Of a stretch of DNA of 64,000 bases, positions 40,987 to 45,560 are shown piece by piece. Origin of the DNA: an uncultured Alphaproteobacteria bacterium. GTDB taxonomy: Bacteria; Pseudomonadota; Alphaproteobacteria; HIMB59; GCA-002718135. A model generated the notes under the pieces. That model searched no databases. It worked only from the letters and a program-made list of their open reading frames with translations, and was not told where the DNA came from. Where the stretch lies: the NCBI GenBank assembly GCA_902573325.1, contig CACGJH010000001.1:1-64000 (forward strand), written 5' to 3'. Every line of letters starts with the position of its first letter. Within the stretch, counting starts at the first letter, position 1. The position numbers were made by a program, and so were the translations under genes.

Positions 40987-42156
40987 TTATATAGAATTAT
41001 AAATTTGTTTTATAATTTGCTTTGCACAATTTACCTTTGTCATTTTCTTAAATTTTTTTATCTGGTTTTTTGTAATTATTGATATCTGATTATAATCTGA
41101 ACCAAAAACTTTATTTTTACTATCGATTTTATTGTAAACCATCATATCACATTTTTTATTAACTAATTTTTTTTTGGCATTATCAATGCTCCCTGTTTCT
41201 GCAGCAAAACCAACTAAAAATTTAGGCCTTTGAGTTTTGCTTTTTCCAATTTTTTCTAAAATATCAATATTTTTATAAAGACTAATATTTAATTTTTCAT
41301 TTTTTTTAATTTTGGATTTATTTATATTTTTATTTTTGAAATCAGATACTGCAGCAGTAAAAATTCCTATATCAATTTTAGAAATTTTTCTAATTTTTTG
41401 ATACATTTCGTTTGCTGATTTTATTTGAATAAATTTTAAATTTGGTGGAGGATCTAAATTTGTTGGTCCAGATATCAAGGTTACGTTCGCTCCATATAAA
41501 ACTAATTGTGAAGCAATTTCATAGCCTTGTTTCCCAGAAGATTGATTTGAAATAAACCTAACTGGATCAATCATTTCAATTGTTGGTCCTGCAGTTACTA
41601 GGCATTTTTTATTTTTTAACAAATTAACATTTTCTAGTCTGTTTAAAACTCTATTTACAATATTTTTTGAGTTATCAATTCTGCCTAAACCAAATTCTCC
41701 ACACTTTAGATTTCCAACTTTAGGGCCAATAAACTCATGACCACTATCCTTTAATAATCTCACATTTTTTTGATTGATTTTGTTATACCACATAAAACTA
41801 TTCATTGCGGGGACAAACAAAATTTTCTTATTTGAAGCAAGTAACGTATTAGAGGCTAAATTATCTCCATATCCATTAGCAAACTTTGCAATAGAATTAG
41901 CTGTAGCTGGACATACAACTATTATATCATTATCTCTTGATAAATTAATATGAAGCATCTTATTTTTCTTCTCATCTTCATCAGTAAATATTTTATTTTT
42001 AAGTAATTTTTTTATATCTGATATTTTTATATATTTCTTTGCTTCTTTAGTTAGAATGCAACTAATTTTGATTTGATTAATATTCAGTAAAGTAATAATT
42101 TCTTTACATCGAGATGCAGCTATAGAGCCAGTTATTATTAATAAAATCTTATTCAT
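40987..42156 (-). CDS. coaBC: Bifunctional CoaBC (phosphopantothenoylcysteine synthetase/decarboxylase)
   Basis: The protein has 389 residues. The N-terminal flavin decarboxylase domain CoaC (ITGSIAASR; HINLSRDNDIIVVCPATAN near 70-88; PAMNSFMW; GNLKCGEFGLGRI) is fused to the CTP-dependent synthetase CoaB (VTAGPTIEMIDPVRFISNQSSGKQG near 187-211; TAAVSDFKN). It performs two steps of coenzyme A synthesis. The start overlaps the ubiE stop by one base (TAATG). Confidence 0.95.
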   Translation of the reverse strand: MNKILLIITGSIAASRCKEIITLLNINQIKISCILTKEAKKYIKISDIKKLLKNKIFTDEDEKKNKMLHINLSRDNDIIVVCPATANSIAKFANGYGDNLASNTLLASNKKILFVPAMNSFMWYNKINQKNVRLLKDSGHEFIGPKVGNLKCGEFGLGRIDNSKNIVNRVLNRLENVNLLKNKKCLVTAGPTIEMIDPVRFISNQSSGKQGYEIASQLVLYGANVTLISGPTNLDPPPNLKFIQIKSANEMYQKIRKISKIDIGIFTAAVSDFKNKNINKSKIKKNEKLNISLYKNIDILEKIGKSKTQRPKFLVGFAAETGSIDNAKKKLVNKKCDMMVYNKIDSKNKVFGSDYNQISIITKNQIKKFKKMTKVNCAKQIIKQIYNSI

Positions 42157-42887
42157 TAAAGTTTATAGCCAGTATGTATAGCTACAATTCCATTAAATAG
42201 ATTAATAGTCTTGACTTTAGTAAATCCACAATCACGTAGATTTTTGCTAAGCTCTTCTTGTGATGGAAATAAATCAATACTTTCACTCAAATAGTTATAA
42301 GAATTCTTATCTTTAGCAACTATTTCCCCTAACAGAGGTAAAATCCTTGATTTGTAAATATTATATGAACTTGATATCAAAGATGATTTGGGTGTGCTAA
42401 ATTCTAAGCAACAATATTTACCACCAGGTTTAAGAACTCTGTAAGCCTCTTTTATAGACAACAAATACTCCGTAACATTTCTTAAGCAGAAAGAAATAGT
42501 ATATATATCAAAAAAATTATTTTCAAAATTTAACCTTTCAGCATTACCAATAAAATATTTTATATTTTTTTCATTTTTTAATTTTTTTCTCCCTTCTATT
42601 AACATTTCTTCATTCAGGTCTAAAAGATAAAGACTGGTAATTAAATCTTCTTTTAAAATTTCACTAGCGATATCACCAGAACCAGAACCAACATCCAAGA
42701 TTATGTCATTTTCCTTTATATCCATAATTTCTACAAATCTTTTTTTCCATAATCGATGCATACCAAAACTCATTAAATCATTCATTATATCGTAGCTTGG
42801 AGCTACGCTTGAAAATACTTTTTGAACAAGTTTAGTCTTTTGTTTTGAATTTACTTTTGTATAACCAAAATTATAATCTTTTTTCAT
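42156..42887 (-). CDS. ubiE: Demethylmenaquinone/2-polyprenyl-6-methoxybenzoquinol methyltransferase UbiE
   Basis: A 243-residue methyltransferase with motif I LDVGSGSGDIASE near 66-78, the UbiE signature SVAPSYDIMNDLMSFGMHRLWK near 28-49, and SFCLRNVTEYLLSI. It methylates ubiquinone precursors. I start at the ATG at 42887. The frame stays open to 42965, but that extra 26-residue stretch lies inside the mutM coding region and is not family-like. The start is one base from the divergent mutM ATG. Confidence 0.95.
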   Translation of the reverse strand: MKKDYNFGYTKVNSKQKTKLVQKVFSSVAPSYDIMNDLMSFGMHRLWKKRFVEIMDIKENDIILDVGSGSGDIASEILKEDLITSLYLLDLNEEMLIEGRKKLKNEKNIKYFIGNAERLNFENNFFDIYTISFCLRNVTEYLLSIKEAYRVLKPGGKYCCLEFSTPKSSLISSSYNIYKSRILPLLGEIVAKDKNSYNYLSESIDLFPSQEELSKNLRDCGFTKVKTINLFNGIVAIHTGYKL

Positions 42888-42888
42888 T

Positions 42889-43707
42889 ATGCCAGAATTA
42901 CCTGAAGTTGAAACTACAATTAGAGGACTTAGTGTAATATTGAAGCAAAAAATATCTAATGTCAAAATTCATACATCAAAACTGCGTTTTAAAATTCCTA
43001 ATAATATAACTAATATACTACGTAACTCCAAGATATCCAACTTAAGACGCATAGCAAAGTTCATTATCATAGATTTAGATAAAGATTATTCTGTAGTTAT
43101 ACATTTAGGGATGTCAGGAAGATTAAAAACTGTGTCTTCAAACTATAAAAGAGCAAAACATGATCATTTTGTTATATGTTTTTTAAGTAAAAAGTTACTC
43201 ATTTACCATGATCCTAGGAAATTTGGATTTATTGATATAGTAAAAACAAGAGATCTACAAAAACAAAAGTATATTATGAGCCTGGGTTTAGATGCGTTGA
43301 GTCCAGATCTTACAGCGCAAATGATATTTGAAAAAATTTCAAAATCTGAGGTGCCAATAAAGCAAATTTTACTAAATCAAAAAATAATTGCTGGCATAGG
43401 TAATATTTATGCATCGGAAATTCTATTTGATTCTAAAATTTCTCCACTTACTTTAGGCAAGAATTTAGAAATTAGTCTCATTATGAAACTAATTAAGTCT
43501 ATTAGAAAAATTTTAAAGAAAGCAATTAAATATGGAGGATCGACCATAAGAGATTATAGGTCTGCTGACGGTACATTAGGAAACTTTCAGTCAAATTTTA
43601 GGGTATACAATAAAGAAGGAAAAAAAATTGGTAATGACAAGGTCAAAAAGATTGTTCAGTATGGTCGATCTACTTTTTATTGTCCAAAAATTCAAAATAA
43701 TTGGTAA
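42889..43707 (+). CDS. mutM: Formamidopyrimidine-DNA glycosylase MutM with degenerate zinc finger
   Basis: A 272-residue Fpg. The catalytic N-terminus PELPEVETT (P2, E3) is intact, as are the LGMSGRL segment near 68 and the helix-two-turn-helix QILLNQKIIAGIGNIYASEILF. The C-terminal finger normally has C-x2-C ... C-x2-C. Here the first pair is gone (KKIGNDKVKKIV) and the second reads CPKI, so one cysteine of four remains. The finger arginine in QYGRSTFYC is kept. This looks like a zincless finger as in NEIL1. It removes 8-oxoguanine. Confidence 0.95.
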   Translation: MPELPEVETTIRGLSVILKQKISNVKIHTSKLRFKIPNNITNILRNSKISNLRRIAKFIIIDLDKDYSVVIHLGMSGRLKTVSSNYKRAKHDHFVICFLSKKLLIYHDPRKFGFIDIVKTRDLQKQKYIMSLGLDALSPDLTAQMIFEKISKSEVPIKQILLNQKIIAGIGNIYASEILFDSKISPLTLGKNLEISLIMKLIKSIRKILKKAIKYGGSTIRDYRSADGTLGNFQSNFRVYNKEGKKIGNDKVKKIVQYGRSTFYCPKIQNNW

Positions 43708-43759: not shown

Positions 43760-44020
43760 ATGGCTAATCATGTTTCAGCAAAAAAAAGATCAAGACAGAA
43801 CAAAACTAGAAATACTGTTAATTCTCAATACTTGTCTAAGTTTAGAAACGCTCTAAATAAATTTAAATCATCCGTTGAAGCAAAAAATGAGGAGGAAATT
43901 CAAAAATCCTTTAGTAATGTCAACTCAATAATGGCCAGAGCATCAAAAAAAGGGATTTTCAAAAAAGAATACATATCCAGAAAGTTATCCTCCTTATCAA
44001 AACAAATTTCAAAAAAATAA
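43760..44020 (+). CDS. rpsT: 30S ribosomal protein S20
   Basis: An 86-residue, lysine-rich S20 (ANHVSAKKRSRQNKTRNTVNSQ at the start; SIMARASKKGIFKKEYISRKLSSL at the end). It binds 16S rRNA. It sits between mutM and dnaA, a conserved alphaproteobacterial order. A T-rich tract follows its stop, but no hairpin is visible. Confidence 0.97.
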   Translation: MANHVSAKKRSRQNKTRNTVNSQYLSKFRNALNKFKSSVEAKNEEEIQKSFSNVNSIMARASKKGIFKKEYISRKLSSLSKQISKK

Positions 44021-44165: not shown

Positions 44166-45560
44166 ATGGATAATTCATCTACTATATTTGACGAAAGTAA
44201 ATGGTTATCTTTTAAAAAAAATCTTAAAAAAAACGTTGGTGACTCTGCTTTTAATAATTGGTTAAAACATTTAAAATTCGTTTCAGTAGAAGATTGCATA
44301 ATTACTTTCTCTGTCCCAACAAAGTTCTTAAGAGATTGGATTGTAAATAATTATTCTGATAAGATTAAAGATGAAGCTAAAAATCTTTCTAACAAACTAG
44401 ATACAATAAAATTTGTTGTTAAACCAACTGGTGGCAGAATTGTCCCGGGTACTGCTCGTACAATTAAAAGTAGTGATAATCATTGGAAATCCACTTTAGA
44501 TCTAAGATCTAATCAATCATCAAATTATCCCAATGAATTTGGAGCTCCTTTAGATCCTCGCTTCACTTTTGAAAATTTTGTTGTAGGTAAACCTAATGAA
44601 CTAGCATTTGCAGCTTCTCAAAGAGTTTCTGAAGCTGATAAAATTACATTCAATCCACTTTTTTTATGTGGCGGTGTTGGATTAGGAAAAACACATCTAA
44701 TGCATGCAATTGGATGGAAGATTAAACAACAGCAACCAGAAAGGAAAGTAATATACCTTTCAGCAGAAAAGTTCATGTATCAATTTGTTAGAGCATTAAG
44801 ATACAAGGATACTTCTGCTTTTAAAGAGCAATTTAGATCAATAGATGTGCTTATGATTGATGATGTCCAGTTTATAAGCGGTAAAGATAATACTCAAGAA
44901 GAATTTTTTCATACATTCAATGCATTGATTGAACAGAATAAACAAATAGTTATATCTGCTGACAAAACACCAACTGATCTTGATGGTGTACAAGAAAGAT
45001 TGAAGTCAAGATTAGGTTGTGGTTTGGTTGCAGATATTCATCCAACAACCTATGAATTAAGACTTGGTATTTTAATCGAAAAAGCTCATAAACGAGGTGT
45101 AGAAATACCACCAAAAGTTCTTGAATTTCTCTCTCATAGGATTATTTCTAACGTTAGAGAGATGGAAGGAGCACTAAATAGATTGGTAGCTCATGCAACT
45201 TTAGTCGGAACAGCAATTACTGTAGAAACTGCACAATTAGTTCTTCAAGATTTATTAAAATCATCAAATAAAAAAATTACAATTGAAGAAATTCAAAAAA
45301 AAGTAGCTGAGCATTTCAACATAAGGATTACGGACATGCATTCTCCAAGAAGATCTCGCTCTGTTGCAAGACCTAGACAAATAGCAATGTATCTTGCAAA
45401 ATCTATAACATCAAGATCATTACCTGAAATTGGAAGAAAATTTGGTGGAAGAGATCACACTACAGTCATGCATGCTGTTAAGAAAATTGAAGAACTTAAG
45501 CTATCTGATGTAAATTTTAATGAAGACCTAGAGTTATTAAAAAGACTTATAGATTCTTAA
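44166..45560 (+). CDS. dnaA: Chromosomal replication initiator DnaA
   Basis: A 464-residue DnaA. An N-terminal domain I (about 1-75) is followed by a linker and an AAA+ domain with Walker A GGVGLGKTH near 169 and Walker B VLMIDDVQF near 230. The C-terminal DNA-binding domain has GRDHTTVMHAVKKIE near 437. The ribosome site is GGGGG just before the ATG. The 145 bases upstream contain no recognisable DnaA boxes, so I see promoter space here rather than an origin. Confidence 0.98.
   Translation: MDNSSTIFDESKWLSFKKNLKKNVGDSAFNNWLKHLKFVSVEDCIITFSVPTKFLRDWIVNNYSDKIKDEAKNLSNKLDTIKFVVKPTGGRIVPGTARTIKSSDNHWKSTLDLRSNQSSNYPNEFGAPLDPRFTFENFVVGKPNELAFAASQRVSEADKITFNPLFLCGGVGLGKTHLMHAIGWKIKQQQPERKVIYLSAEKFMYQFVRALRYKDTSAFKEQFRSIDVLMIDDVQFISGKDNTQEEFFHTFNALIEQNKQIVISADKTPTDLDGVQERLKSRLGCGLVADIHPTTYELRLGILIEKAHKRGVEIPPKVLEFLSHRIISNVREMEGALNRLVAHATLVGTAITVETAQLVLQDLLKSSNKKITIEEIQKKVAEHFNIRITDMHSPRRSRSVARPRQIAMYLAKSITSRSLPEIGRKFGGRDHTTVMHAVKKIEELKLSDVNFNEDLELLKRLIDS

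Follow-up and report, generated by a model that had tools for sequence, protein, structure and literature searches.

A MutM (Fpg) protein without the four-cysteine zinc site of the finger in the alphaproteobacterial order HIMB59

The window analyzed here, a stretch of 64,000 nucleotides (contig CACGJH010000001.1 of assembly GCA_902573325.1) from an uncultured alphaproteobacterium of the order HIMB59, encodes a MutM (Fpg) DNA glycosylase whose finger lacks the four-cysteine zinc site. We regard this protein as an ordinary, vertically inherited alphaproteobacterial MutM (8-oxoguanine/Fapy DNA glycosylase-AP lyase) that lost the zinc site of its finger, with the common ancestor of the order as the simplest place for the loss, and we give this reading a probability of about 0.8. 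The best reading of the finger itself, judged from sequence comparison and a predicted structure, is that of a working zincless finger, which would have converged with those of NEIL1 and plant Fpg on an enzyme keeping the bacterial 8-oxoguanine (8-oxoG) loop. The enzyme itself is well known, and this form of it is uncommon but can be understood; zinc saving is not likely to be the reason for it.

Identification of the gene

The region from 43600 to 43707, noted earlier for its finger, is the finger end of a 272-codon ORF:

42889..43707, plus strand: mutM (fpg), 272 amino acids, zincless-finger variant (TIGR00577, NF002211, PF01149, and PF06831 all above cut-off)

That the product is MutM, as had been proposed from the letters alone (here called the sequence-only reading), was borne out by family scores above the curated cut-offs. 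The NCBIfam fpg equivalog TIGR00577 matched over its full length with 254.9 bits (cut-off, 203.3) and NF002211 with 286.5 bits (cut-off, 212), and the Pfam models of the N-terminal domain (PF01149; 102.4 bits) and the H2TH domain (PF06831; 89.2 bits) were also above their cut-offs. The C-terminal domain model PF21025 scored 14.5 bits, below its cut-off of 27. No match to PF06827 (zf-FPG_IleRS) was reported in the Pfam protein search at E values of up to 10, and the NEIL1 zincless finger family, pfam09292, was absent from the four Pfam matches obtained at that threshold; the protein is thus not a member of the NEIL1 family, and its finger would work like that of NEIL1. In a genome search, the window finger reached 12.6 bits with PF06827 (E value, 0.31; cut-off, 21.3). 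Since cysteine-bearing SAR11-like MutMs also fall below this cut-off (18.2 to 20.5 bits), the score alone is not decisive, and it is the cysteine count that decides.

The window genome, a 37-contig draft that is 89.7% complete, has a single match to the Fpg model. Within the order, fpg was found in 132 of 162 genomes, including all 20 with a completeness of at least 90%. Score, synteny, and fold identify the window gene as the orthologous alphaproteobacterial mutM.

The finger of the window protein and its counterparts in the order

Finger residues 240 to 269 read YNKEGKKIGNDKVKKIVQYGRSTFYCPKIQ. Finger cysteines were counted by alignment column (Cys1 to Cys4). The features of the protein are as follows:

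42892..42897, plus strand: P2-E3, catalytic N-terminal proline and glutamate (82/82 distinct order rows and 260/260 others with a letter)
43402..43404, plus strand: N172 of the H2TH motif (87/87 order rows and 261/261 others; PF06831, 89.2 bits)
43537..43587, plus strand: G217-F233, aligned with the bacterial 8-oxoG recognition (betaF-alpha10) loop and of canonical length (gapless alignment with Escherichia coli Fpg, 1k82)
43606..43695, plus strand: zincless beta-ribbon finger, residues 240 to 269 (sequence, pooled dN/dS of 0.091, predicted strands)
43627..43629, plus strand: I247, Cys1 column (alignment columns, order versus others)
43666..43668, plus strand: R260, phosphate-clamp arginine at the finger tip (86/86 order rows and 261/261 others)
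43681..43683, plus strand: C265, which is Cys3, the sole remaining finger cysteine (alignment column)
43690..43692, plus strand: I268, Cys4 column (alignment column)

The sequence-only reading had held that three of the four zinc cysteines are gone and that the catalytic residues, the H2TH motif, and the finger arginine are kept. Both statements stood: C265 alone remains in the finger, and P2, E3, N172, and R260 are intact, as are K57, M75, R110, and F112. No residue can be matched to Cys2 with certainty: compared with a CxxC knuckle (such as that of locus L107), the first knuckle is short by two residues, and the alignment sets D250 in the Cys2 column. Besides C265, the protein contains just one cysteine, C97, which lies far away, and a four-cysteine site therefore cannot be built. 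Finger arginines of the R260 type serve as a phosphate clamp (PMC9266487, PMC4176347; these two, PMC3188539, PMC10308909, and PMC4771312 are cited here and below for parts of their text).

Aligning relatives, a test set beforehand, showed that the cysteines are not retained within the order: the four-cysteine site is absent from all 158 finger-complete loci, which belong to two families (f1 and f2) of HIMB59, so that a local defect is not the explanation. The order set consisted of 121 loci (87 distinct sequences) and 38 further loci, 159 in all, of which 158 are complete and one, L018, is interrupted; L018 was included in the 121, with a count of no cysteines, despite its interrupted finger. 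Rows L165, L177, L186, L513, and L516 were dropped for want of a finger or gene. Counts of distinct sequences are given because the sets of order loci overlap in genome.

Finger cysteines in the order loci numbered 0 to 2. The Cys1 column holds Ile in 74, Tyr in 5, Val in 3, Leu in 2, Phe in 1, and Met in 1 of the 86 distinct rows and no Cys, versus Cys in 260 of 261 sequences from outside the order. In the Cys4 column the order has Leu (54), Ile (31), and Phe (1) among 86 distinct rows, with Leu in 36 further f2 loci and Lys in L514, a later f1 locus; outside the order, this column has Cys (194), Arg (36), His (10), Lys (7), and Val (3) among the 261. The Cys3 column is occupied by Cys in 77, Ser in 7, Val in 1, and Ala in 1 of 86 distinct order rows. 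Cys3 is mostly present in f1 (Val in L088 and Ser in L514), and in f2 the column has Ser in 43 of 45 loci, including all 36 further ones, with Ala in L173 and Cys in L175. Because Cys3 has been lost in several branches, it appears, by its distribution, to be left over rather than to serve as a ligand. Two f2 loci carry a stray cysteine in the loop. The alignment of the f2 loop is uncertain across the stretch from Cys1 to Cys2.

Residue 258 (43660 to 43662), next to the finger Gly-Arg, is Tyr in 75 of 86 distinct order rows and mostly Ser, Gly, or Ala in other MutMs; the Tyr of the order may be part of a compensation.

MutM fingers outside the order

The zincless finger had been called uncommon in bacterial MutM, and the wider sample agreed, with one other clear case among 261 sequences from outside the order. 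These comprised a class sample (159), 30 loci from the SAR11-like order (that of G252), a phylum sample (69), and 3 named loci, one of them from Parcubacteria (L076). At least four finger cysteines were found in 240, three in 20, and one in a single sequence (L285). All three-cysteine fingers came from the 159 other alphaproteobacteria, and 13 of the 20 have a His in the finger. At least four finger cysteines were present in 69 of 69 sequences of the phylum sample and in 30 of 30 SAR11-like loci read (53 genomes had a match). The same was true of all 7 viral MutMs read of 8, and no viral source was seen, the 7 being cysteine bearing throughout.

Ligand arrangements vary in the class sample. 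First knuckles of the CxxxxC type are common in its alphaproteobacterial MutMs, and the Cys4 column holds Arg in 36 of the 159 sequences, often together with a CxxCxC first knuckle. Fingers with shuffled ligands include L137, L142, L147, L153, L155, L258, L301, and L339, and those with three cysteines have His or Asp nearby.

L285/L386 (G190) is an unrelated alphaproteobacterial MutM in which Cys1, Cys2, and Cys4 are absent and the arginine and Cys3 are kept. It has polar Ser in the Cys1 and Cys4 columns, which in the order are almost always hydrophobic or aromatic, and in the tree it lies closest to other alphaproteobacteria, in no starred grouping. We provisionally consider it a second, independent loss of the site; the assignment is provisional because it comes from one draft genome, the sole representative of its order among the genomes compared.

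Predicted structure and comparison with known fingers

An AlphaFold2 model built from 24 sequences had a mean pLDDT of 91.5, with 93 to 95 per block of ten residues in the finger, and showed strands at residues 253 to 257 and 260 to 264 around R260; the 24-sequence alignment included zinc-bearing homologues, from which the finger shape may be borrowed. With 12 sequences, residues 219 to 247 and 253 to 272 fell below a pLDDT of 50. The model matched the zinc-bearing MutM 1r2y with a Z score of 35.0 (root mean square deviation of 1.7 Å over 267 aligned residues, covering residues 2 to 270), Arabidopsis FPG (3twm) with a Z score of 27.6, and Mimivirus MvNei1 (3a45) with a Z score of 26.5. NEIL1 was absent among the 50 structural matches listed, an absence that does not point to a different fold. 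The finger is thus predicted to keep the MutM fold.

Bacterial Fpg/MutM enzymes with a four-cysteine finger (1r2y, 1k82, and LlFpg; clade BaFpg1) have the same catalytic, H2TH, intercalation, recognition loop, and finger arginine residues as the window MutM. The latter differs in having no four-cysteine site, whereas the four cysteines are perfectly conserved in the BaFpg1 set (PMC3188539) and were found in 0 of the 158 finger-complete order loci. We therefore do not file the protein as a zinc-finger Fpg. With a predicted beta-hairpin (residues 253 to 264) that carries an arginine and with no zinc ligands in its sequence, it would instead fall among the Fpg/Nei proteins with a zincless finger.

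Such fingers have been described in NEIL1, in plant and fungal Fpg, and in a giant virus (PMC3188539, PMC9266487); we saw none described for a bacterial MutM in the open-access literature searched, as far as its available text goes. The NEIL1 finger (pfam09292; PMC9266487) is likewise a hairpin with an arginine, without zinc ligands, and with the same presumed role. Plant and fungal Fpg (3twk, 3twl, and 3twm) and MvNei1 (3a45 and 3a42) also combine a zincless finger with an Fpg-type enzyme. Separate origins of the NEIL1 and the plant/fungal fingers are supported (PMC3188539). A different state of the recognition loop has been reported for the plant/fungal clade, in contrast to the bacterial-type loop of the window MutM, and the betaF-alpha10 loop has a role in 8-oxoG recognition (PMC3188539).

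In E. coli Fpg, mutants of the zinc-finger cysteines lose DNA binding (PMC4176347), and this lineage must therefore have compensated for the loss. In the mechanism that we propose, the beta-hairpin would be held by hydrophobic packing, with Ile/Val at Cys1 and Leu/Ile at Cys4 replacing the zinc. Arg260 would still be presented and would clamp the phosphates next to the extruded lesion, as in zincless NEIL1, plant Fpg, and MvNei1. Known fingers of this kind, in NEIL1, plant/fungal Fpg, and Mimivirus, do the same job without metal (PMC3188539, PMC9266487, PMC4176347).

A broader proposal is that this marine order as a whole has a natural metal-free bacterial 8-oxoG glycosylase in which a hydrophobic minicore is joined to the bacterial loop, that L285 represents an independent loss, that the fingers of the class record the dismantling of the site, and that the product would resist oxidants and zinc-ejecting drugs by which ordinary MutM is inactivated. 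We put this forward tentatively, with the odds against it.

As to the pathway, a MutY-like match in the window genome scored 260.1 bits, below the curated cut-off of 286.5. Matches of at least 174 bits were found in 16 of 18 order genomes searched, none above the cut-off, and G133 and G128 had weak Nth-like matches only. The iron-sulfur motif of MutY was seen in one order copy that was readable (L476). As Fpg and a MutY-like gene are both present, an 8-oxoG repair pathway in the window genome is plausible from gene content.

Possible causes of the loss

The data agree best with gradual replacement as the cause. The number and place of the ligands shift in alphaproteobacterial fingers, and in one lineage the loss would have become complete when the hairpin no longer depended on the metal for its stability; a benefit from saving zinc would not be needed. 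The order, together with class relatives that have intermediate ligand sets, is a test bed for the loss of a structural metal site with retention of function.

A selective advantage can also be imagined, in that an enzyme repairing oxidative damage would benefit if it lacked a zinc-thiolate cluster open to destruction by peroxide or electrophiles. 2-Thioxanthine oxidizes the zinc-finger cysteines of Fpg, expels the zinc, and blocks DNA binding, and zincless NEIL1 resists it (PMC4176347); in several branches of the order, the leftover Cys3 has been lost as well. However, most f1 members keep Cys3 (the 77 of 86 distinct order rows that have it are nearly all f1), the SAR11-like relatives retain the MutM zinc site, and the 4Fe-4S motif of MutY is kept in L476. 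Oxidation proofing is therefore an unlikely cause. Whatever the cause, the predicted zinc-free MutM is a natural comparison for inhibition of the 2-thioxanthine type.

The sequence-only reading had suggested that the finger could save zinc in the open ocean. The loss of the site as an economy in zinc-poor water was weakly supported, and we consider it less likely still than oxidation proofing. It was examined in three zinc-protein families (PF06827, PF01197, and PF00444). In its favor, ribosomal protein L31 is cysteine free in all 18 genomes of the order, and a zinc ribbon is missing from L36 in the 12 copies read from the order (L31 was read in 20 of 22 loci above the cut-off, 18 from the order and 2 SAR11-like, and L36 in 15 of 22, 12 from the order and 3 SAR11-like, including L453). 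However, IleRS keeps both CxxC knuckles in 14 of 14 order genomes read (18 searched; 16 IleRS loci were read, 14 of them from the order, with G040, G043, G045, and G137 above the cut-off and outside those read). The SAR11-like genomes, moreover, share the cysteine-free L31 (2 read of 4) and the ribbonless L36 (3 read of 4), yet at least four finger cysteines are kept by their MutMs in all 30 loci read. As a low-copy protein, MutM would save little zinc. The clade called AEGEAN-169, to which the order probably corresponds, has been reported to have an iron/zinc chelator gene (PMC10308909); the word mutM is absent from the main text of that study, and MutM is unmentioned in the available text of a study of trace-metal uptake (PMC4771312). 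Missing cysteines in a streamlined genome need not signal zinc economy.

Across the order and the SAR11-like genomes (L417 to L438 and L441 to L462), L31 was cysteine free in 20 of 20 and L36 ribbonless in 15 of 15 copies read, and six f1 copies of L36 keep two scattered cysteines. The C terminus of the SAR11-like IleRS L408 (G405) has one CxxC knuckle, with the second not seen and an unusual cysteine spacing.

Conservation and selection

Residues P2, E3, K57, D108, R110, F112, G169, G171 to Y174, Y240, and R260 are invariant among the distinct order rows with a letter, and G217, G228, G231, and F233 of the loop are each conserved in 87 of 87 order rows. Pooled dN/dS was 0.091 for the finger, 0.099 for the H2TH region, 0.222 for the N-terminal domain, and 0.028 for residues 258 to 269 around Arg260; these are crude Nei-Gojobori estimates from 42 sequences and 861 nonindependent pairs. 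Sequences L068 and L071 (different length) and L073, L075, and L076 (outside the order) were dropped from this set. By these ratios, the finger is under strong purifying selection, which argues strongly against decay.

Streamlined genomes lose repair genes, and in G002 the finger of L018 (G002:C6:19830-20641) is broken by an in-frame TAG together with a change of frame, which may reflect an assembly or sequencing error. A MutM losing its function is nevertheless very improbable here, with a dN/dS of 0.09 in the finger and ~0.03 around Arg260, invariant catalytic residues, and the gene present in every one of the 20 genomes with at least 90% completeness. A pseudogene or a sequencing error was rejected on the basis of conservation, dN/dS, and synteny.

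There is just as little to be said for a metal still bound through other ligands or between subunits. One cysteine is left in most f1 fingers, and other alphaproteobacteria use shifted ligands (CxxCxC, His, and Asp), but the Cys1 and Cys4 columns of the order are almost exclusively Ile, Leu, Val, Tyr, or Phe, Cys3 is missing from 44 of 45 f2 loci, and the two cysteines of the window protein are far apart.

Genomic place and origin of the gene

Three neighbors of mutM were identified in the window:

42156..42887, minus strand: ubiE, divergent neighbor (PF01209, 253.9 bits; start codon 1 bp from that of mutM)
43760..44020, plus strand: rpsT (S20), downstream (PF01649, 65.4 bits)
44166..45560, plus strand: dnaA, downstream (PF00308, 229.7 bits)

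Among order loci with more than 2.5 kb, ubiE, S20, and dnaA were found in 60, 59, and 58 of 60 unnamed loci and in 43, 42, and 42 of 43 named loci, respectively. The corresponding counts were 30, 7, and 25 of 30 for SAR11-like loci and 41, 16, and 5 of 58 for class loci; in all of these comparisons, the queries were the window's own proteins, flanks were short, and orientation was seen for some rows. The window gene thus lies in the conserved alphaproteobacterial place of mutM (ubiE/mutM/rpsT/dnaA), and because this place is conserved, the zincless form most likely did not come from another source, and the gene is most likely the ancestral one at its original site. Although the window genome is a 37-contig draft, a sequencing or assembly artifact, or the horizontal gain of a plant- or NEIL-type gene, has a negligible probability, as the same zincless finger occurs in a one-contig genome (G037, locus L172) and in 158 loci and as the synteny is conserved, the equivalog score is high enough to pass its cut-off, and the 8-oxoG loop is of the bacterial type. 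Horizontal gain of a zincless homologue was ruled out by synteny together with the family score.

In a tree of 102 MutMs from which the finger columns had been removed, f1 (98/93) and f2 (100/100) were recovered as groups. The best tree does not join f1 and f2; a single clade for the order was not rejected (AU test, P = 0.375). A single change suffices for the order, relative to the other named groups, in 80% of 200 bootstrap trees, a count that leaves out 61 ungrouped rows. One loss of the zinc site, in the ancestor of the order, is the simplest account, and two losses are possible. L075 (Pelagibacteraceae) groups with f93 in the tree.

In the window, the start codons of ubiE and mutM are 1 bp apart (42885 to 42891). 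As the two starts nearly abut, promoter or ribosome-binding signals would have to lie inside the coding sequence of the neighbor or be absent. The distance from the start of mutM to the closest reverse ATG is 1 to 12 bp in ten further f1 loci and 38 bp in the SAR11-like loci L075 and L151.
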